Shown here: positions 18,573-29,252 of the stretch, piece by piece
Position numbering within the stretch: the stretch's first letter is position 1
How the letters are laid out: every line of letters begins with the position of its first letter
Assembly: GCF_900100335.1 (NCBI RefSeq)
Contig: NZ_FNFE01000003.1
Coordinates: forward strand, 310,001 to 374,000
DNA: 64,000 bases
Origin: Natronorubrum texcoconense
Lineage (GTDB): Archaea; Halobacteriota; Halobacteria; Halobacteriales; Natrialbaceae
Reading direction: 5' to 3'
The notes under the pieces: generated by a model
Database searches by the model: none
What the model saw: the letters and a program-made list of their open reading frames with translations, nothing else
Told to the model about the DNA's origin: nothing
Position numbers and translations under genes: made by a program

Positions 18573-18882
18573 ACCCGCGAGACGCTCCCCGAGCAAAAAA
18601 TAGTACGTGGTACGGCAACGTGGAACGTGGCAATCCCGCACGACGACGGTGGTATCGTCTCGCGAATCAAGGGCGTGTTCAGTCGCGGCGACTGACCAGC
18701 GCTATCGTCGCTCGATTCCCCACAGTATCGCCGTTTTTCTGTGCCAGTGGTCGTGCGTGGACTCGAGTAGTCCCCGGTAGCGAAAGCGGAGGCCGCCACC
18801 GACCAGTTCGCCTGCCGGACGAGTTCGACCGGGAACGAATTGTCAGAGTTACGTTCAAACCGATCGCATGCGAAAAGGTGCC

Positions 18883-19938
18883 ATGGACACCGCCGAGAAA
18901 TTCAGCCGATACGCGGAGTGGGTCGCGGACGAGTCGCCGCTGTACGCCTCGCTAGCGAGGGCGGCGGCCGACGACGATCTCCTGCTCGACATTGCGTCGG
19001 AAGCCCGGTCGGCACAGCCCGAACCGGAACTCCTGCTTGCGGCGGTCCACTCGCTCCTCTTAGACGGCCGAGAGCATCCGCTGTCCCAATTCTATCCCTC
19101 CTGTGGTGGCGCGGATCCGGACGCAGACCCGGTACCGCAGTTCCGTGACTTCTGCAGGGCGAACGAGGCGCAGTTGCGGTCAATAGTCGCGAGGCGGCGC
19201 TGTCAGACGAACGACGTCGGGCGGTCCGCAGTGATCCGGCCAGCGTTCGAACACGTCGCCAGAACGGCCGGCACCGGGACCGTAGCGCAGGTCGAGATCG
19301 GAGCGAGCGCGGGGCTCAACCTCAATTGGGATCGGTATCAGTACGAGTTCGCGGGTGCCGGCACCGTCGGGCCGAGCGACGCACCCGTAACGATCGAATC
19401 GGAGGTTCGGGGCGACCGTCGTCCGCCGGTCTCTCGAGCCGTCCCGACGGTTGCGTATCGGCGCGGCATCGACCTGAATACCCTCGACGCGTCACTCGAG
19501 GCGGACGCCCGGTGGCTACACGCACTGATTCATCCGAATCGCGTTCGGCGACACGACCGACTCGAGGCCGCGCTCGAGGTCGCCCGCGAGCATCGACCGC
19601 CACTCACCGAGGGCGACGCCGTCGACGCCCTCCCGTCTCACCTCTCGGCGGCCCCGGACGACGCCGCCCTCGTCGTCTACAGCACACACGTCCTCTACCA
19701 ACTCGACGAGGAGACGATCGCGAACCTCCGGTCGGTCCTCTCGCGGCACAGCAGGGAACGACGCGTCTACTGGCTGTCGATCGATCCCGGCGAGGAACTC
19801 GGAACGCCGACGTACCGGCTGGTGACATTCGACGACGAAACCGCGAGGGAAACGCAACTCGCACGATTCGAATCCTACGGAAAGTGGATCCGGTGGCTCG
19901 CTAGCGAGGACGGGCCTCCCTCACAGGAGCCCTCGTAG
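18883..19938 (+). CDS. DUF2332 family protein
   Basis: A 351-residue soluble protein of the DUF2332 family. The start is MDTAEKFSRYAEWVADESPL, with LLLAAVHSLLLDGREHPLSQ and FYPSC following. VAQVEIGASAGLNLNWDRYQ is the family hallmark and looks like a SAM-binding-type glycine loop. VVYSTHVLYQLDEETIANLR comes later. An in-frame ATG at 18868 is an alternative start five codons upstream. It is convergent with the membrane protein and their 3' ends overlap by 18 bases (19921-19938). Function unknown; a methyltransferase-like fold is an inference. Confidence 0.86.
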   Translation: MDTAEKFSRYAEWVADESPLYASLARAAADDDLLLDIASEARSAQPEPELLLAAVHSLLLDGREHPLSQFYPSCGGADPDADPVPQFRDFCRANEAQLRSIVARRRCQTNDVGRSAVIRPAFEHVARTAGTGTVAQVEIGASAGLNLNWDRYQYEFAGAGTVGPSDAPVTIESEVRGDRRPPVSRAVPTVAYRRGIDLNTLDASLEADARWLHALIHPNRVRRHDRLEAALEVAREHRPPLTEGDAVDALPSHLSAAPDDAALVVYSTHVLYQLDEETIANLRSVLSRHSRERRVYWLSIDPGEELGTPTYRLVTFDDETARETQLARFESYGKWIRWLASEDGPPSQEPS

Positions 19939-20376
19939 CAGCGACCCGAGCACCGGCAGGCCGAACGCGCTGGCGATGACCAAATAGACGACGGGCGTCA
20001 TCTCGAGGACGGTCCACGCCGATCCCCCGAGCGTGAGCGCGAAGACGACGAGGACGACGAGACCGAAGCCGACCGCGCCGACGATGCCTCGGCGAAGGGA
20101 CGGCGAGACGAACGCGACGAACGCCCCGCCGAGAACGAGACCGAACCAGTGGAGCCAGGACGCCAACAGTCCGAGGACGACCGCTCCTGCGACGGCGACG
20201 GCGTGTAACCCTGGCTCGGTTCTGACGCGCTCGAGGACGGTTCGGCTGCGCTCCAGACTGGTCTTGCGGCGTTCGACGGCCCTGTTTTCGGAACCACAGT
20301 TCTCGAGCGCTCCCTCGGACGCCTCCGACCCGGTCGTCTCGCGCGTCCCGTTCTCGTCCGATCCGCTGGCGCTCAC
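19921..20376 (-). CDS. Membrane protein coupled to penicillin-acylase-like gene
   Basis: A 151-residue protein from a GTG at 20376, which overlaps the upstream gene's TGA by four bases (GTGA), so it is almost certainly co-translated. Residues 1-50 are a soluble, charged N-terminus. Then come about four hydrophobic helices: LHAVAVAGAVVLGLLASWLH, FGLVLGGAFVAFV, IVGAVGFGLVVLVVFALTL and VVYLVIASAFGLPVLGSLL. The longer in-frame reading upstream is antisense-free but runs inside the acylase gene and is rejected. No family is recognised. Confidence 0.78.
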   Translation of the reverse strand: MSASGSDENGTRETTGSEASEGALENCGSENRAVERRKTSLERSRTVLERVRTEPGLHAVAVAGAVVLGLLASWLHWFGLVLGGAFVAFVSPSLRRGIVGAVGFGLVVLVVFALTLGGSAWTVLEMTPVVYLVIASAFGLPVLGSLLRGLL

Positions 20377-22814
20377 GAGGATCCCTCCGTGAACGAAACG
20401 GTGACGTCGGCCTCCGTCGATAGCGCCATCGGTTTCTGGTCGTTGTCGATCCAGCGCTCGAACTGATCGCCGTAGTGGGCGGAGAAGTAGTCGCCCGAGT
20501 TCCCGCCGGGAAGGATCGCCGTCGCCTCGCCGCCGGGTTCGACGACCATCCGCCAACTCGAGCCGACGGCGCTCCCGGCGCGATAGTTGTTGACGGTCGC
20601 CCGCGAGCCGTCGAGGGGCAGGTCGTCGTAGTCGAGGAACGGGGCCTCCACGCCGAAGGGATGTTCGATCGGCTTCGTCGTGTTCCAGTCGCCGTAGCGC
20701 TCCCACCCTTCGTCGTCGATCTCGTCCAGCGCGGCCTCGAGCGCCTCGAGCATCGTCTCCTCGCGCGACCGGTCCGCGTAGAGGTCGCTGTCCGCCGAGA
20801 GCGTCGCGACCGCCCAGTCGCCCGGATAGTACGACTCGTCGAGATCACCCGCTTCGAACTGGGGCTCGACCGTCAGCCGTCGGAACTGCTCCATCCACCG
20901 GGCGAACAGGAGCGCCCCCTCCTCGTCGCGATCCATCCGTCGGTTCCAGTCCTCGAGCGTCGCCGTGGCGTCCGCAAGTCGGTCGGTGACGTCACGGCTC
21001 TCGACGACGTCGAATAGGTCGGGGAGGAGTTGGTCCGCCCGACCGTCGTGGGTGTCGGACTGGAGGTCACGGTGGAACTCGAGGTCCGTCCCTTCGCCGT
21101 TCTCGACGGCCTCGTCCAACCGATCGTAGATGCGCGCACCGCGGTAGGGCGAGGCGTACGCGACGCCGACGTAGTGTTCGGGATCGTCGACGACGCGCTG
21201 GTTGGCCGTCGCGAGCACGTCGGGATCGATGGCGTGCGGTTTTGCCTCGAACGGGACGAAGCCGTCCCACGACGACTCGCCGAAGGGGGTGAACCCCTCC
21301 CACTCGCCCTCGCCCGCGGAGCCGTCGAAGATCCGGTTGCCGGGCACTTCCTCGCCGCCGATCGTTCGGATCGGGAGCTGTCCCGTCGCGTAGTACAGCG
21401 TCCGCCCGTCGACGTCCGCGTAGACGAGGTTCTGCGTCGGGAGGTCGAACTTGCGGGTCGCCTCGAGCAAGTCCTCGAGCCCGTCGCTACGGCCGAACTC
21501 GTAGATCGCCTCGGTCGTCCGCGTGGCGGTGTGGCCGGTCCAAGCGACGCCGACGGTCCGCTCCTCTCGCTCGAGGACCGGCCCGTGAACGGTCTTTCTG
21601 ACCGTGATCGTTCGATTTTCCCCGTCGGCGACGACGAGTTCGCGCTCCTCGCGGTCGAACTCGCGCCACTCGTCGTCGTATCGATACCGTTCACCATTTT
21701 CGTCGATCTCGTACCGGTAGCAGTCGAGGACGTCGGCGCCGACGTTGGTGAACGACCAGGTCCCCGAGTCGTTGGCGCCGGCAATGACGAACGGCACGCC
21801 CGGGAACGTCGCGCCCCGAACCGAGCGCTCGGGCGTTTCGACGCGTTGCTCGTACCACAGCGGCGGCGTCATCAGCGTGAGGTGGGGATCGTAGGCGACG
21901 ATCGGGTTACCGCTTTCCGTGTGTGCCCCCGAGACGACCCAGCTGTTCGAGCCGACGCCGGTCGGCGACTCGTACCTCGAGAGCCAGTTCGTCAATTCGT
22001 CGCCCACGTTCCCGGCCGCGTCGGCTCCGTTCGTCCCACCGGTTCCGTCGCTATCGTCGTCGCCACCGTTGTCGTTTTCGCTGTCTCCATCGTCAGTCTC
22101 GAGCCGATCCGCGTCGACGGCGTCGCGGAGGATCGGTGTATCGTGGTCCATCCGCTCGGGAAACAGCTCGTCGGCGACGGTCTCGCCGAGTCGATCGGCG
22201 ACCAGCGCCCGCCGGAGTTCATCGAAGTTCCCCGTCAGATCCCACGAGATCTGTTTCTCCATCAGCATCGAGTCCGCCGGCGTCCACTCGCGGGGCTCGT
22301 AGTCGAGGAGTTCGAACTCGAGGGGGAGCAACCCGGCCTCGATGACGGTGTTGACGCCGTCGGCGTAGGCCTCGACGAGTTCGCCCGCGGGCGTCTCGGC
22401 GATCGACTCCCAGGTTGCCTCGGCAGCGCCCGCGAAGTCCATCCGGACGTGGAACTCGTCGTCATCGAGGGTGGCCTCGCCGACGAGTTCGGAGAGCTGG
22501 CCCCGCATGACCCGCCGCTGGAGATCGAGCTGAAACAGTCGGTCGTACGCCTGCACGTAGCCGACGGCGAAGTACGCCGCGGCCTCGTCGTCGGCCTCGA
22601 CGTGCGGAACGCCGTGGTCGTCGACCCGGAGGCTGGCCTCGCCGTAGGGGTTCTCGACGGAGTCCGGAAGCGACCGGCTGGCCGTGTTCCAGGCCCGCCC
22701 CGACAGCGGCGCGAACTGCGACAGGAGCTCTCGAGCCCCGGTCAGCGTCAGTCCGCCGATCCCTGCGGCAAGCGCGCCCGCGAGCACGCCCCGGCGTGTG
22801 GTGTCTGCTGGCAC
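20373..22814 (-). CDS. Penicillin acylase family Ntn hydrolase, exported
   Basis: An 813-residue secreted Ntn hydrolase of the penicillin/acyl-homoserine-lactone acylase family, which cleaves amide-linked acyl groups. The N-terminus TTRRGVLAGALAAGIGGLTL is a Tat-type signal. The alpha region spans 60-285, with an acidic low-complexity spacer at 240-270 as processed linker. Ser289 in GSNSWVVSG is the nucleophile expected at the start of the beta chain, followed by the family's AYDPHL. The start codon is GTG. Length and order match the family. The natural substrate (N-acyl amino acid, AHL or lipid amide) cannot be told. Confidence 0.9.
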   Translation of the reverse strand: MPADTTRRGVLAGALAAGIGGLTLTGARELLSQFAPLSGRAWNTASRSLPDSVENPYGEASLRVDDHGVPHVEADDEAAAYFAVGYVQAYDRLFQLDLQRRVMRGQLSELVGEATLDDDEFHVRMDFAGAAEATWESIAETPAGELVEAYADGVNTVIEAGLLPLEFELLDYEPREWTPADSMLMEKQISWDLTGNFDELRRALVADRLGETVADELFPERMDHDTPILRDAVDADRLETDDGDSENDNGGDDDSDGTGGTNGADAAGNVGDELTNWLSRYESPTGVGSNSWVVSGAHTESGNPIVAYDPHLTLMTPPLWYEQRVETPERSVRGATFPGVPFVIAGANDSGTWSFTNVGADVLDCYRYEIDENGERYRYDDEWREFDREERELVVADGENRTITVRKTVHGPVLEREERTVGVAWTGHTATRTTEAIYEFGRSDGLEDLLEATRKFDLPTQNLVYADVDGRTLYYATGQLPIRTIGGEEVPGNRIFDGSAGEGEWEGFTPFGESSWDGFVPFEAKPHAIDPDVLATANQRVVDDPEHYVGVAYASPYRGARIYDRLDEAVENGEGTDLEFHRDLQSDTHDGRADQLLPDLFDVVESRDVTDRLADATATLEDWNRRMDRDEEGALLFARWMEQFRRLTVEPQFEAGDLDESYYPGDWAVATLSADSDLYADRSREETMLEALEAALDEIDDEGWERYGDWNTTKPIEHPFGVEAPFLDYDDLPLDGSRATVNNYRAGSAVGSSWRMVVEPGGEATAILPGGNSGDYFSAHYGDQFERWIDNDQKPMALSTEADVTVSFTEGSS

Positions 22815-22973: not shown

Positions 22974-24209
22974 TCAGAGCGAATCGGTGTCGAGCCGAGT
23001 GATCGCCGACCGAATCCCGAGAAAGACGACGACCGCCACCAGACAGTAGCCGGCGAGCGAGAGCCAGGTCGTCGCCGTCGGACTCCCGATCGCGAGCTTC
23101 GCGACGGTGTTCGCGGGATGTTCGGGCAGCAGGGTCGCGATCACCAGCGCGGCGACGATGCCGACGGAGTACCCGATCTGGGCCTGCCGCCGGTCAGGCG
23201 CGACGAGCGCGATGGCGGTTCCGACCCCCGTAACCAGCAACGCGAGCGCGGAGACGAACACGACGAGCGCCGCCGGCAACGCGATTCCGGTCCCGTTGAC
23301 CGCGAGGAGAACGAGCCACGCGGCAGCCTGTAGCGGCGCCAGCGCGGCGATCGTGAGAAGCTTCACGTCGGCGATGTCGACGAGCGACAGCGGACTGACC
23401 CGGAGCAACTCGAGGGTCCCTCGCGAGCGCTCTTCGATCAGCGAGTCGACGACGATCGAGCCGCTGATGAACACCGGCAGGAACAGGAGCAACGGCACCA
23501 GTACGGTGTAGGTGAACTCGACGTACGGACTCGCGTCGCCCTCCGTCGGGACGGTCAGAGGCGGTTCCTCGAGGGCGTCCGCGTTGGCGACGCGCTCCTC
23601 GTGTTCGAGCGACTCGAGGAGCTCCTGCAACTGGACGACGAGCAGCGTCGTCTCGAGGCCGTCGTCGGCCGCGGTCACCCCGACGACGAGCCGGTCCTCG
23701 GCGTCTCTGGTCACCTCGAGAACGGCCTCGAACTGCCCGTCGTCGAACGCCTGTATCGCCTCGTCGCGGTCCCCGGCGACGGTCGGTTCGAGACCGTCGC
23801 GTTCGTCCGCGAGCGCCCGAAGCTGCTGGACGTCCTCGGCGTCTTGGCCGGCGATGACGATCTCGGCACCGTAGCCCTCCGCGGAGCCGGGATCGTACAG
23901 CGAGACCAGCCCGACGACGAGAAACGAGGAGAAGCCGGCGATAACGAGCTGGATCGCCAGCGCGAGGACGATCGTCTTCTCGGAGCGAAGCGAGCCGAGT
24001 TCGCGGCGGGCGACGGCCCAGCGGGGACCGAAGAGCGAGTCGATCGGTCCGAACAGCGAGCCGAGACGGGAGTCTGCGCTCGACGTGTTGTCGGCCGGTC
24101 GCGGCGGATTCGGGCCGCGTTGGACGGGGACCTGCTCGTCGCGGGGCCGCTCGTCGCTCGAGTCGCGTACTCCGTTTCGCCCGCTTCGCCGGTCGCGATC
24201 ACGCGACAA
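22974..24209 (-). CDS. ABC-2 type transporter permease (second permease)
   Basis: A 411-residue ABC-2-type membrane subunit. A disordered 50-residue N-terminus precedes a first helix (SEKTIVLALAIQLVIAGFSS). A large extracytoplasmic loop (105-225) follows. Then five to six helices begin at about 228 (YTVLVPLLLFLPVFISGSIV), with the SLIEERSRGTLELLRVSPLS coupling segment typical of NatB/YhaP-like permeases. The only in-frame start near the family N-terminus is TTG at 24209, overlapping the upstream gene by 11 bases, so coupling is likely. It is the last gene of a three-gene exporter operon. Confidence 0.85.
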   Translation of the reverse strand: MSRDRDRRSGRNGVRDSSDERPRDEQVPVQRGPNPPRPADNTSSADSRLGSLFGPIDSLFGPRWAVARRELGSLRSEKTIVLALAIQLVIAGFSSFLVVGLVSLYDPGSAEGYGAEIVIAGQDAEDVQQLRALADERDGLEPTVAGDRDEAIQAFDDGQFEAVLEVTRDAEDRLVVGVTAADDGLETTLLVVQLQELLESLEHEERVANADALEEPPLTVPTEGDASPYVEFTYTVLVPLLLFLPVFISGSIVVDSLIEERSRGTLELLRVSPLSLVDIADVKLLTIAALAPLQAAAWLVLLAVNGTGIALPAALVVFVSALALLVTGVGTAIALVAPDRRQAQIGYSVGIVAALVIATLLPEHPANTVAKLAIGSPTATTWLSLAGYCLVAVVVFLGIRSAITRLDTDSL

Positions 24210-26091
24210 GCGCGATCACCCCGAGGTTGTAGGCCGCGTGAACGAGCGTTGCGATCACGAACGCGACCGCGTACGCGTTCTGTCCGCGACTCGCGCCGAG
24301 CGCGGAGATCACGGCGGTCACGACGTGCAACACCAGCGGCGCGAAAAAGAGCGCGAGGAGGAGCAGCGGATCGCTCGACAGCGCGGGGCCGAAGGCGGCG
24401 ACGCCGACCGTCAGTTCTGGGAGGCCCACGAACTGGGCGACGTGGGTGAGCTTCTCGCCGACGAAGAAGCCGACCCCGGAGAGGACGCCGAGGAGGACGG
24501 CGATCCGGAGGGAGGACTCGAATTTCGAGCGGGCGAAGCCGGCGTAGACGTGGATGCTCTTGGCGAACTCCTCGATGGCCGCCGCGAGGACGAAGATCAT
24601 GGGGAGAGCGAACGTCTCCGGAACGGCGAACAAGAGGGCGACGGCGAGCAACTGAGCCGTAAAGACGAACGGGATAAAGAGCATCGACAGAATCGGGACG
24701 CTTCGGTAGCCGTGGAGTCGACTCGCGAGGGCGTCGATCACCTTCACCGGGATCGCCTTCTGGGCGAACATGTCCTCCTCGCGGTAGACGCCGAGACCGA
24801 GCAGGAAGCAGATGCCCGCGCTGGCGAGGAACGGGCCCGTCGAGAAGAGATACTCGCCCAGTCGGACCGTCTCGCCCTGTAGGTCCATCACGATCAGCGT
24901 CAGTGGCGAGATCAGCGCGATCGGTGTCACGTCGGTGAAGACTGCCGGGATGAACGTATAGGTGGTCAGGAAGACGCTGATCGTGACCGTCACGAACGTG
25001 AGCTCCTTGTACGACCGCGCGAGCATCGCGCCGACGAACGTAGCCGCCAGAAAGAGCAGCGCGATCGGGATCGCCGCGGCGACCGAGAGGGGGCCGCCAC
25101 CGACGGCGACCGTGATCGCGACGGCGATGGCAACGAGAGCCGCCAAATACGGCAGCGTCTTGCCGGCGACGATCTCTCGGCTCGAGGCCGGCGACACGAG
25201 CAACAGTTCGCCGCGCCGTTTGATTCGCTCGTCCATGATCGTGCTTCCGTAGGCCTGGATAACGAAGTTCATCGGGACGACGAACAGGAAGGCGAGCAGC
25301 AGTGACTGGAAGGGAAACGGCGGCGAGATCGATCCCGGCGTCCCCGAGGCGTCCTCGACGGCGCCGCTGCCGACATCGGGGACCTGGAGACTGCCGTCGC
25401 CCGTGCCACTAGTTCCGTCAGTGGTACCCCCGTCGTCGTCGCTCGAGTCCTCAGTACCGGTTCCGGAATCATCGCCGGTGCCATCCGTCGTCTCACTCCC
25501 GCCGTTCCCGTCGGTGGTCGAGTCATCGCCAGTCTCGCTCTCGTCAGTGTCAGTTCCGCTACCGTCAGCCGTCGCCCCGCCGAGGTCGCGGTCCCGGTAC
25601 TCGAGGTCGACCAACACGGGATAGGCGGCCGTCTGGTTTGCCTCCTGACTCAACCGTCGTTCGTTGTACTCCTTGACTGCGTCTCGGAACGCGTCGTAGG
25701 CGACAGCCCCGTTCGGCCCGACGTGGCCGATCTGTCCCCGTTGTGTGACCACCACGTCGGCGTTCGCGTCCTCCCCGTCGTCGGTGATCTCGAGGTCCTC
25801 GAGTCCGATCACCCGAAAGGAGTCACTCTCGACGGCGACGTCGTGGTACTGGCTGTCCTCGTCGACGGCCATCACGTAGAGTTCGTCCTCGAGACCGAGC
25901 CCCTCGTCGGCGACGGAGATCCCGACGATGCCGACGGTCAGGAGCAATCCCACGAGCACGAGCGCCGTCTTTCGGTCGACCGTGCCGGTGCTTCGGAAGA
26001 CCTCCCAGCGGGCGATCCGAGTCGTCCGCGCCAGCACGCCGCGGAGGCGAGCAGCGCCGGAGCGCGTGTCCCGTTCGCGCTCGTCGCTCAC
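24199..26091 (-). CDS. ABC-2 permease fused to PrsW-type intramembrane protease
   Basis: A 630-residue membrane protein. Residues 1-60 contain the first helix. Residues 65-170 form an outer domain, and 173-256 are a Ser/Thr/Gly/Asp linker. Residues 262-435 are an ABC-2 permease core, with MDERIKRRGELLLVSPASSR as coupling segment. Residues 465-630 are a PrsW-like protease: Glu507-Glu508-x-x-Lys511 (EEFAK), His589, and His618-x-x-x-Asn622. The GTG start at 26091 overlaps the ATPase gene by four bases. PrsW proteases cut membrane-anchored regulators; a covalent link to an exporter suggests coupled sensing or processing. Confidence 0.85.
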   Translation of the reverse strand: MSDERERDTRSGAARLRGVLARTTRIARWEVFRSTGTVDRKTALVLVGLLLTVGIVGISVADEGLGLEDELYVMAVDEDSQYHDVAVESDSFRVIGLEDLEITDDGEDANADVVVTQRGQIGHVGPNGAVAYDAFRDAVKEYNERRLSQEANQTAAYPVLVDLEYRDRDLGGATADGSGTDTDESETGDDSTTDGNGGSETTDGTGDDSGTGTEDSSDDDGGTTDGTSGTGDGSLQVPDVGSGAVEDASGTPGSISPPFPFQSLLLAFLFVVPMNFVIQAYGSTIMDERIKRRGELLLVSPASSREIVAGKTLPYLAALVAIAVAITVAVGGGPLSVAAAIPIALLFLAATFVGAMLARSYKELTFVTVTISVFLTTYTFIPAVFTDVTPIALISPLTLIVMDLQGETVRLGEYLFSTGPFLASAGICFLLGLGVYREEDMFAQKAIPVKVIDALASRLHGYRSVPILSMLFIPFVFTAQLLAVALLFAVPETFALPMIFVLAAAIEEFAKSIHVYAGFARSKFESSLRIAVLLGVLSGVGFFVGEKLTHVAQFVGLPELTVGVAAFGPALSSDPLLLLALFFAPLVLHVVTAVISALGASRGQNAYAVAFVIATLVHAAYNLGVIALVA

Positions 26092-27080: not shown

Positions 27081-27288
27081 TCGTTACTCGAGCGTCGAAG
27101 AGGCGTCAGTAAAGTGTAGCGGCTAGTGACGGTCTCCGGTATCGGTAGGTGGGGAACGGTTCCGGCGGTTGGATCGACTCCCGCCAGTTATCGACGCCGA
27201 TCGCCGCCGAACGGAGCCCCAAGACGTCTCGGGCACTCGAGTCGCCTGCCAAACCTCCATACCCCGTGACACCGTACCCTCTGGATAC

Positions 27289-27693
27289 ATGACCCGCCTC
27301 CGGACTGCACACACCCCGGACGGTCGCCGCCTCGAGGCCTCGCACGTCCTCGAGGCCCCCGCAGCGGACGCCTGGGAGCTACTGGTCGACACCACACGGT
27401 GGCCCGAGTGGTCGCCGCTCGTCAACGGCGTCGAGTCGACCGACCGGCGGCTTCGTTCGGGGACCACCGGTCGCGTACGGGTCTCGGGTGTCTGGCTCTC
27501 GTTCCGAATCACCGACTGTTCGGATCGACGGTGGGCGTGGCGGATCTCCGGGCTTCCGATCGCGGCCCACCGGGTCGACGACCTCGAGGGCAGCCGGTGT
27601 CGAATCGTCTTCGAGCTTCCGCTACACGCCGTCGGCTCAGTCCCGGTCTGTCTGCGCGCGCTCGAGCGACTCGAAGCGTTGCTCGTCGAGTAG
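27289..27693 (+). CDS. SRPBCC (polyketide cyclase-like) family protein
   Basis: A 134-residue START/Bet v 1-fold protein. ASHVLEAPAADAWELLVDTT followed by RWPEWSPLVNGV is the family opening (strand, helix, the W-P-E-W motif). It continues with strands GTTGRVRVSG and CRIVFELPL and a final helix RALERLEALL. The ATG at 27289 is used because the fold begins right after it; an upstream frame extension is unconserved. Such proteins bind small hydrophobic ligands. No partner gene is apparent. Confidence 0.8.
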   Translation: MTRLRTAHTPDGRRLEASHVLEAPAADAWELLVDTTRWPEWSPLVNGVESTDRRLRSGTTGRVRVSGVWLSFRITDCSDRRWAWRISGLPIAAHRVDDLEGSRCRIVFELPLHAVGSVPVCLRALERLEALLVE

Positions 27694-28085: not shown

Positions 28086-28754
28086 TTACGGCGGCCGCTC
28101 GAGCCCGAACCGGTCGTCGGTTCGCGTGTACAAACTCCCCGCCAGCCGACCGACCGCGTCGACGTCGTTCACGTCGATCTTCCCATCAGTAGTCACCGAC
28201 TCGTCCAGATGGACGTACCGGACGTCGCCCAGCACGAGCGTCGAGCCGCCGACATCGAGCAGCTCTCGGAGGGTGCACTCGAAGGCGATCTTCGCGTCAG
28301 CGACTCGAGGAACGTCGACCACGGACGAGGCGGCGCGGTCGATGTCCGCGTGGTCGAACTCGCTCTCGCCCGCCGGCAAACTCGCGCTGGTCTCGTTCAT
28401 CGCCTCCTCGAGGCCGTCGGTGACGATATTGACGACGAACTCGCCCGATTCGCGGGCGTTTCGCGGGGTATCCTTGAGGCCCTCCGGACCGTCGACCGGC
28501 GCAAAGAGCAAGACCGGCGGGTCGACCGATGCCACGGTGAAGAAACTGTACGGTGCGAGGTTGTCAACGCCGTCGGCGCTGCGGGTGCTCACCCACGCGA
28601 TGGGACGCGGGACGACCGCACTCGAGAGCACGCGATAGAGCGATCCCGGGTGCGTGTCGGGATCGATCTCGAGGGAGTTCGTGCGGTCGTTCGGTTCGGT
28701 CCCGCCGTCGGTAGCGTCCGGTTCGATCTCGTCTGTCGGAGGTGAGTCTGTCAT
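28086..28754 (-). CDS. Flavin reductase family protein (FMN-binding)
   Basis: A 222-residue flavin-reductase-like split-barrel protein. After an acidic 28-residue N-terminus it has SLYRVLSSAVVPRPIAWVST, then NLAPYSFFTVASVDPPVLLF, the FMN-binding face, then KDTPRNARESGEFVVNIV and a late FECTLRELLDVG. It is divergent from an HxlR regulator, with a palindrome-rich gap of 108 bases, so redox-responsive control is likely. It could reduce free FMN or act with FMN bound; both occur in this family. Confidence 0.86.
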   Translation of the reverse strand: MTDSPPTDEIEPDATDGGTEPNDRTNSLEIDPDTHPGSLYRVLSSAVVPRPIAWVSTRSADGVDNLAPYSFFTVASVDPPVLLFAPVDGPEGLKDTPRNARESGEFVVNIVTDGLEEAMNETSASLPAGESEFDHADIDRAASSVVDVPRVADAKIAFECTLRELLDVGGSTLVLGDVRYVHLDESVTTDGKIDVNDVDAVGRLAGSLYTRTDDRFGLERPP

Positions 28755-28770
28755 GTGTGTGAGCGCGCGT

Positions 28771-28842
28771 TCGGTCCGTACCGAGGCCACTAACGCCGTG
28801 TTAGCTGGTTCGGACCCGAACTGCTAAAACGGTTCGTACCGT
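28771..28842. promoter_or_regulatory. Palindrome-rich divergent control region
   Basis: Four palindromes lie within 72 bases: TCGGTCCGTACCGA (28771-28784), CTAACGCCGTGTTAG (28790-28804), GTTCGGACCCGAAC (28808-28821) and ACGGTTCGTACCGT (28829-28842). The first and last share CGGT-YCGT-ACCG and look like two copies of one operator, one beside each divergent start. Confidence 0.6.
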
Positions 28843-28862: not shown

Positions 28863-29252
28863 ATGTCTTCCCAACAGCCCCACACACAGGAGGAACAATC
28901 CCCGTCCCGCGACGACCAGTCGCCTTCCAACGACGGTCAGCCCAACGCCTGCCCCGTCATCGAATCGCTCGAGCAGATCGGCTCCCAGTGGCGACTGGCC
29001 GTCCTCCACGAACTCCTCGAGGGCGAACAGCGGTTCAACGAACTCAAGCGCTCGACCGAGGCGAACGCGCGCACCCTCTCGCGCGTGCTCGACGACCTCG
29101 GCGAGATGGGCTTTGTCGAACGCCGAATCGAGGAGGACGCCCCCATCGCAACCTACTACAGTTTGACGGACAAGGGACGGTCCCTCGAACCCGTCTTCGA
29201 CGAAATCGAGTGCTGGGCTGGCTCGTGGCTCGACGAGGAATTCGAGGGCTGA
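28863..29252 (+). CDS. HxlR family winged-helix regulator
   Basis: A 129-residue regulator. The first 27 residues are Gln/Ser/Asp-rich. The HxlR domain begins at ACPVIESLEQIGSQWRLAVL with its conserved Cys, followed by HELLEGEQRFNELKR, the recognition region EANARTLSRVLDDLGEMGFV and the wing TYYSLTDKGRSLEPVF. HxlR proteins commonly respond to aldehydes, quinones or oxidants through the N-terminal Cys. Its divergent partner is a flavin reductase, and the palindromes between them are likely its operators. Confidence 0.9.
   Translation: MSSQQPHTQEEQSPSRDDQSPSNDGQPNACPVIESLEQIGSQWRLAVLHELLEGEQRFNELKRSTEANARTLSRVLDDLGEMGFVERRIEEDAPIATYYSLTDKGRSLEPVFDEIECWAGSWLDEEFEG

Follow-up and report, generated by a model that had tools for sequence, protein, structure and literature searches.

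ABC transporters that carry a C39 peptidase, a soluble cysteine protease, unite protease and exporter on one chain. RasP and Eep, by comparison, are site-2 metalloproteases, a family other than PrsW. In Staphylococcus aureus, the production and export of linear peptides require Eep as well as EcsAB (PMC7157817), and in Bacillus EcsAB and RasP act in one pathway (PMC7478892). The PrsW proteases are defined by EExxK in TMH3, an additional His in TMH5 not found in CAAX proteases, and HxxxD in TMH6 (PMC4602095), and most members of the family have about eight membrane helices (PMC3482391).

The window analysed here is a stretch of 64,000 nucleotides from the haloarchaeon Natronorubrum texcoconense (contig NZ_FNFE01000003.1, positions 310,001 to 374,000). 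It contains an operon of three genes on the minus strand (Table 1), the middle one of which encodes a single chain of 630 codons that is almost certainly an ABC-2 permease fused to a PrsW-type intramembrane protease. Its GTG start, at 26091, sits within the overlap with the ATPase stop codon, and the reading frame ends at 24199. The ATPase translation shows Walker A (GPNGAGKTT) and Walker B (LIFDEP) motifs, and matches TIGR01188 at 2e-72, a score under that model's own cut-off. In a preliminary description of the sequence it was proposed that the fusion is embedded in an operon with its ATPase and a second permease, and this is upheld by the overlaps of 4 and 11 bases with the two neighbouring genes, which recur in relatives. 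The order ATPase, fusion, permease 2 is repeated among haloarchaea, with the ATPase gene overlapping the fusion by 4 bp at 64 of 77 loci and the fusion overlapping permease 2 by 8 or 11 bp at 70 of 79. As the second permease adjoins the fusion in nearly all loci, it is probably the partner of the latter in a transporter heterodimer, and the operon is best explained as encoding an ABC-2 exporter with a dimeric ATPase and two dissimilar permeases.

Table 1. Coordinates of the operon, of the parts of the fusion protein and of small open reading frames at related loci (window positions unless a locus is given)
Feature	Position	Strand	Evidence or conservation
ABC ATPase (DrrA/NatA-like), operon gene 1, 330 aa	26088..27080	-	Pfam ABC_tran 3.3e-31, DrrA1-3_C 2.2e-6
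Fusion protein, ABC-2 permease + PrsW-type intramembrane protease, 630 aa	24199..26091	-	
Amphipathic N-terminal helix and TM1 of ABC-2 permease, residues 1-63	25903..26091	-	AlphaFold2 helices 6-34, 40-63
Extracellular domain between TM1 and TM2, residues 64-260	25312..25902	-	AlphaFold2 model
Ser/Thr/Gly/Asp-rich disordered segment within extracellular domain, residues about 168-251	25339..25590	-	pLDDT <50
TM2-TM6 of ABC-2 permease, residues 261-435	24787..25311	-	ABC2_membrane_3 in orthologues, Foldseek
Permease-protease joint, cytoplasmic, residues 436-463, YREEDMF in haloarchaea	24703..24786	-	
PrsW-type protease core, five membrane helices, residues 464-630	24202..24702	-	hhalign, PF13367 matches of orthologues, domain pLDDT 89
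Motif 1, E507-E508-x-x-K511	24559..24573	-	invariant 81/81
Motif 2, F542-F543-x-x-E546-K547	24451..24468	-	invariant 81/81
Motif 3, H589 (extra His of PrsW)	24325..24327	-	invariant 81/81
Motif 4, H618-x-x-Y621-N622	24226..24240	-	H618, Y621 81/81; N622 79/81
Second ABC-2 permease, 411 aa as listed	22974..24209	-	ABC2_membrane_3 3e-18
Small-ORF examples	L103:4454-4591, L124:3917-4105, L135:3744-3938		

The ABC-2 core of the N-terminal half, also part of the preliminary description, is borne out by the orthologues, 10 of 19 of which match ABC2_membrane_3 (best 4e-9), although the window protein alone falls under threshold for the Pfam ABC2_membrane models in a single-sequence scan. The AlphaFold2 model of the fusion (mean pLDDT 80) has an N-terminal amphipathic helix, TM1, a large extracellular domain and TM2-TM6, which is the ABC-2 layout. 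In a Foldseek search, mycobacterial ABC efflux pumps ranked first (probability 0.97) and NosY was among the best matches (0.84), with no E-value <0.001. Counting charges in 81 orthologues shows a clear positive-inside distribution, which places the C-terminus outside. The extracellular domain is acidic, with 40 Asp and Glu against 11 Lys and Arg per orthologue, as is the Ser/Thr/Gly/Asp-rich segment, which varies from 59 to 143 residues across orthologues. This segment had initially been taken for the linker between the two halves. It is, however, a predicted disordered stretch placed inside the extracellular loop between TM1 and TM2, and thus does not link permease to protease; the joint is formed instead by the cytoplasmic residues 436-463, a stretch of 28 residues in most orthologues.

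The identity of the C-terminal half was assessed by comparing a profile of 80 orthologues plus the window protein with profiles of 30 stand-alone haloarchaeal PrsW and 25 CPBP proteins using hhalign. Against PrsW, the C-terminal part of the fusion gave a probability of 94.9 and an E-value of 4.7e-8 over 148 columns, in a register that aligns all four motifs (EExxK, GFxxxxE, His and HxxYN), whereas against CPBP the values were 2.7 and 0.017. Control comparisons with PrsW, using reversed profiles, the permease half, the second permease and 20 column shuffles, gave probabilities of about 2 or less; E-values were 0.1-0.16 for the reversed profiles and no better than 0.022 for the shuffles. The PrsW-like assignment made at the outset is thus sustained, as is the contrast drawn then with CPBP-protease fusions. 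A CPBP or Rce1-like (PF02517) identity was rejected, both on this low probability and on the presence of EExxK and FxxxE instead of EExxxR and FxxxH. Weak matches to PMP22_Claudin and TafF were dismissed as low-complexity or membrane noise.

A search with the PrsW model PF13367, which had been suggested as a check, succeeds for the orthologues and not for the window protein. In related genomes about a dozen same-locus orthologues score above the curated cut-off of 23.5 bits (best 36.8), while the window protein gave no PrsW match in single-sequence Pfam or NCBIfam scans. Since the same model detects orthologues from the same locus above its curated cut-off, this miss probably reflects a sensitivity limit. 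A member-by-member default hmmscan of the orthologues likewise did not report PrsW, unlike the genome search with the same model, and further PrsW fusions may be concealed by such misses. A sequence search of the PDB with the fusion found nothing, and a Foldseek search of the PDB with only the protease domain had no significant match. The second and fifth places in the latter ranking (E-values 1.8 and 2.6) were taken by the APH-1 subunit of gamma-secretase, which is accepted as a distant relative of both CPBP and PrsW (PMC6588880); the ranking is compatible with a predicted PrsW fold, though not proof of it. The fused domain has five helices, a four-helix catalytic core plus one, as against the eight or so typical of the family, and for this reason is termed PrsW-type, a fused core of the family, and not a typical PrsW.

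All of the residues named in the preliminary description (E507, E508, K511, H589, H618 and N622) were found at their positions and confirmed, but motif 2, which aligns with GFAxIEN of stand-alone PrsW, had been overlooked. The motifs correspond to the published definition of PrsW, with HxxxN in place of HxxxD. Among the 81 close orthologues, Asn at position 622 is replaced only by Asp, in two of them. In 35 distant fusions E507, E508, K511, F542, E546, K547, H589 and H618 are essentially invariant. Just 29 of the 630 positions are near-invariant in this distant set, roughly ten of them belonging to the motifs, a pattern which, on sequence grounds, means selection for the active site. In the model, the motifs lie in the predicted helices TM8, TM9, TM10 and TM11 at pLDDT >90, and the catalytic residues fall at 0.27-0.68 of the depth of these helices, so that all of them are predicted to be mid-membrane. 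The Glu and His residues could have been found on opposite faces of the membrane; instead, all are predicted at mid-depth in four consecutive high-confidence helices. The fused protease is very probably active, to judge from this conservation.

A survey of conservation among haloarchaea had also been proposed, and full-length orthologues were found in 213 of 292 near-complete haloarchaeal genomes (56 of 76 genera). Across the phylum (GTDB Halobacteriota) the fusion is present in 147 of 295 genomes and 62 of 108 genera, methanogens included. It is encoded by 32 of 61 near relatives, and most members of the genus to which the window belongs lack it, which indicates that its function is dispensable; the named proteins closest to the window protein in the tree belong to Haloterrigena and Natrinema. 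Haloarchaea and the larger families cluster in this tree as expected under mainly vertical descent. The fusion is therefore old and widely distributed, occurring across haloarchaea, in many methanogens and in further archaea of the phylum. As far as sequences can tell, the finding is real and reaches further than the preliminary description could have known. The orthologue in Haladaptatus bears the RefSeq name 'ABC transporter permease subunit', and present annotation thus conceals the fusion.

Of 20 fusion-bearing genomes sampled outside the haloarchaea, 13 have a match to the methanogenesis protein McrA, one in each listed family except f21 and f22. McrA was not found in the six genomes of family f21, which are presumably Archaeoglobi. 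One genome (G083, locus L177) carries the fusion together with four McrA-like genes, and these suggest an alkane-oxidising archaeon. Fusion and permease 2 are still adjacent in loci outside the haloarchaea (L176-L195), and the ATPase gene there is a neighbour, oriented head-to-head with the fusion in 17/17 loci where it was found. The additional copy of the fusion in Halorussus salinisoli (L094:5980-7914) is an orphan, lying near a TnpB-like gene with neither ATPase nor permease 2 beside it.

Genes flanking the operon were examined across loci. The substrate search found no conserved peptide gene, and none for a hydrophobic peptide, beside the operon. Its one weak candidate family is a small, soluble-looking ORF with the pattern MKDVSHTAPN..SA..VW.RG, present in 13 loci upstream of the ATPase (examples in Table 1). 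Divergent from the ATPase is a gene for an SRPBCC (polyketide cyclase-like) protein (27169-27693, plus strand), which is found near the operon in 37 of 80 haloarchaeal loci. An HxlR regulator gene (28863-29252, plus strand) is near in 33 of the 80, and a flavin reductase-like gene (28086-28790, minus strand) in 17. The proximity of SRPBCC and HxlR spans several haloarchaeal families, yet none of the three came up as a conserved neighbour in the loci from outside the haloarchaea, and they were rejected as functional partners, their association having the look of shared gene order. Downstream of the operon are a DUF2332 gene (18868-19938, plus strand) and a penicillin amidase-family gene (20373-22814, minus strand), the latter near the operon only in Natrialbaceae-like loci.

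It is attractive to suppose that the two halves of the fusion act in succession. At mid-membrane, the PrsW-type core would cleave a small peptide embedded there, such as a propeptide or what is left of a signal peptide, and the adjoining pair of permeases, driven by ATP, would carry the product out of the cell. The fusion would then be a one-chain archaeal analogue of RasP/Eep together with EcsAB/PptAB. Both domains are present on a single chain, with conserved partners, a conserved active site and a mid-membrane placement of the latter in the model. By analogy with the Gram-positive systems, the protease would cut, the permease pair would export and both would act on the same peptide. The early idea, in which the exporter would process its own substrate or a signal, fits such a scheme. 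Counting against it are the negative search for a substrate gene beside the operon, the Foldseek result for the protease domain, the score of the window protein under the PF13367 threshold and the absence of the fusion from most of the genus, and we give coupled processing and export by one machine an even chance.

An alternative is a sensor of flux or stress, in which the exporter would transport a drug, lipid or ion and its state would switch the PrsW domain to cut a membrane-tethered regulator. PrsW of Bacillus cuts RsiW, and in B. subtilis it is the site-1 protease of this anti-sigma factor (PMC4602095, PMC3482391). The recurrence of an HxlR gene near the operon could be read in the same way, but in the loci compared, none of the conserved genes adjoining the operon was recognised as encoding a membrane-anchored regulator. 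HxlR proteins are soluble and not membrane-tethered, and to our knowledge archaea are without sigma and anti-sigma factors; we consider a sensor unlikely. An equally unlikely role is housekeeping, in which the protease would cut residual signal peptides or damaged membrane segments, whose fragments the exporter would expel, with no part in signalling. Both the failure to find a dedicated substrate gene and the broad distribution over the phylum would suit such clearance. However, the fusion is missing from roughly one in four near-complete haloarchaeal genomes and from most of the window's genus, so clearance by this route is not a universal need.

Other readings deny the C-terminal half a catalytic role. 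Were it a structural module of an ordinary exporter, all of the catalytic residues would not be required, whereas eight catalytic-motif positions are invariant in 81/81 orthologues and nearly so in the 35 distant fusions, whose permease halves have strongly diverged; we regard this as very improbable. That membrane helices might resemble PrsW motifs by chance is suggested by the single-sequence Pfam search, which gave no PrsW match. Such a chance likeness is in practice refuted, as assessed from sequence comparison, by the profile alignment with its negative controls, by the orthologues over the curated cut-off and by the recurrence of full-length orthologues in so many haloarchaeal genomes.

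Coupled processing and export stands as the preferred reading. A covalent link between protease and exporter that is kept phylum-wide, with the active site intact, implies that the two activities serve one task. Several Haloferax species carry the fusion, and it therefore provides a genetically tractable entry to the roles of PrsW in archaea, where sigma/anti-sigma targets are lacking, and lets one ask whether archaea export processed peptides. A broader and rather doubtful extension would be that Halobacteriota make and export small linear peptides from membrane-embedded precursors through this single-chain protease-exporter, a route for archaeal peptide signals or weapons that would be older than the split between haloarchaea and methanogens.

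Among described proteins, the protease half is closest to the PrsW family (PF13367, MEROPS M82), of which the stand-alone haloarchaeal HVO_0408 is an example, sharing EExxK, F-x-x-x-E, the His in the next-to-last core helix and HxxxN in the last, in the same order across four consecutive helices. Unlike stand-alone PrsW, it is a five-helix core behind an ABC-2 permease and its motif 2 ends in Glu-Lys, not Glu-Asn. The architecture is likewise that of NCBIfam NF041647, an ABC permease subunit/CPBP fusion of about 630 residues that has an ABC-2 permease in front and an intramembrane protease from the same superfamily behind; there, however, the protease is CPBP. The window fusion does not match this model, and none of 61 relatives exceeds its cut-off of 435 bits. 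The permease part of NF041647 resembles the archaeal second permease and not the fused one, and so the PrsW and CPBP fusions seem, by sequence likeness, to have arisen independently, on different permeases. A Pfam scan found no C39 domain in the window fusion, in contrast to peptidase-containing ABC transporters. No paper describing a PrsW-permease fusion was found among open-access papers. In RasP/Eep with EcsAB/PptAB of Gram-positive bacteria, an intramembrane protease and then an ABC exporter act on small peptides (PMC7157817, PMC7478892), but from separate genes, whereas the archaeal fusion is one chain. The locus is of a known kind, the protease-coupled ABC exporter, in a PrsW version that differs from the known CPBP fusion.
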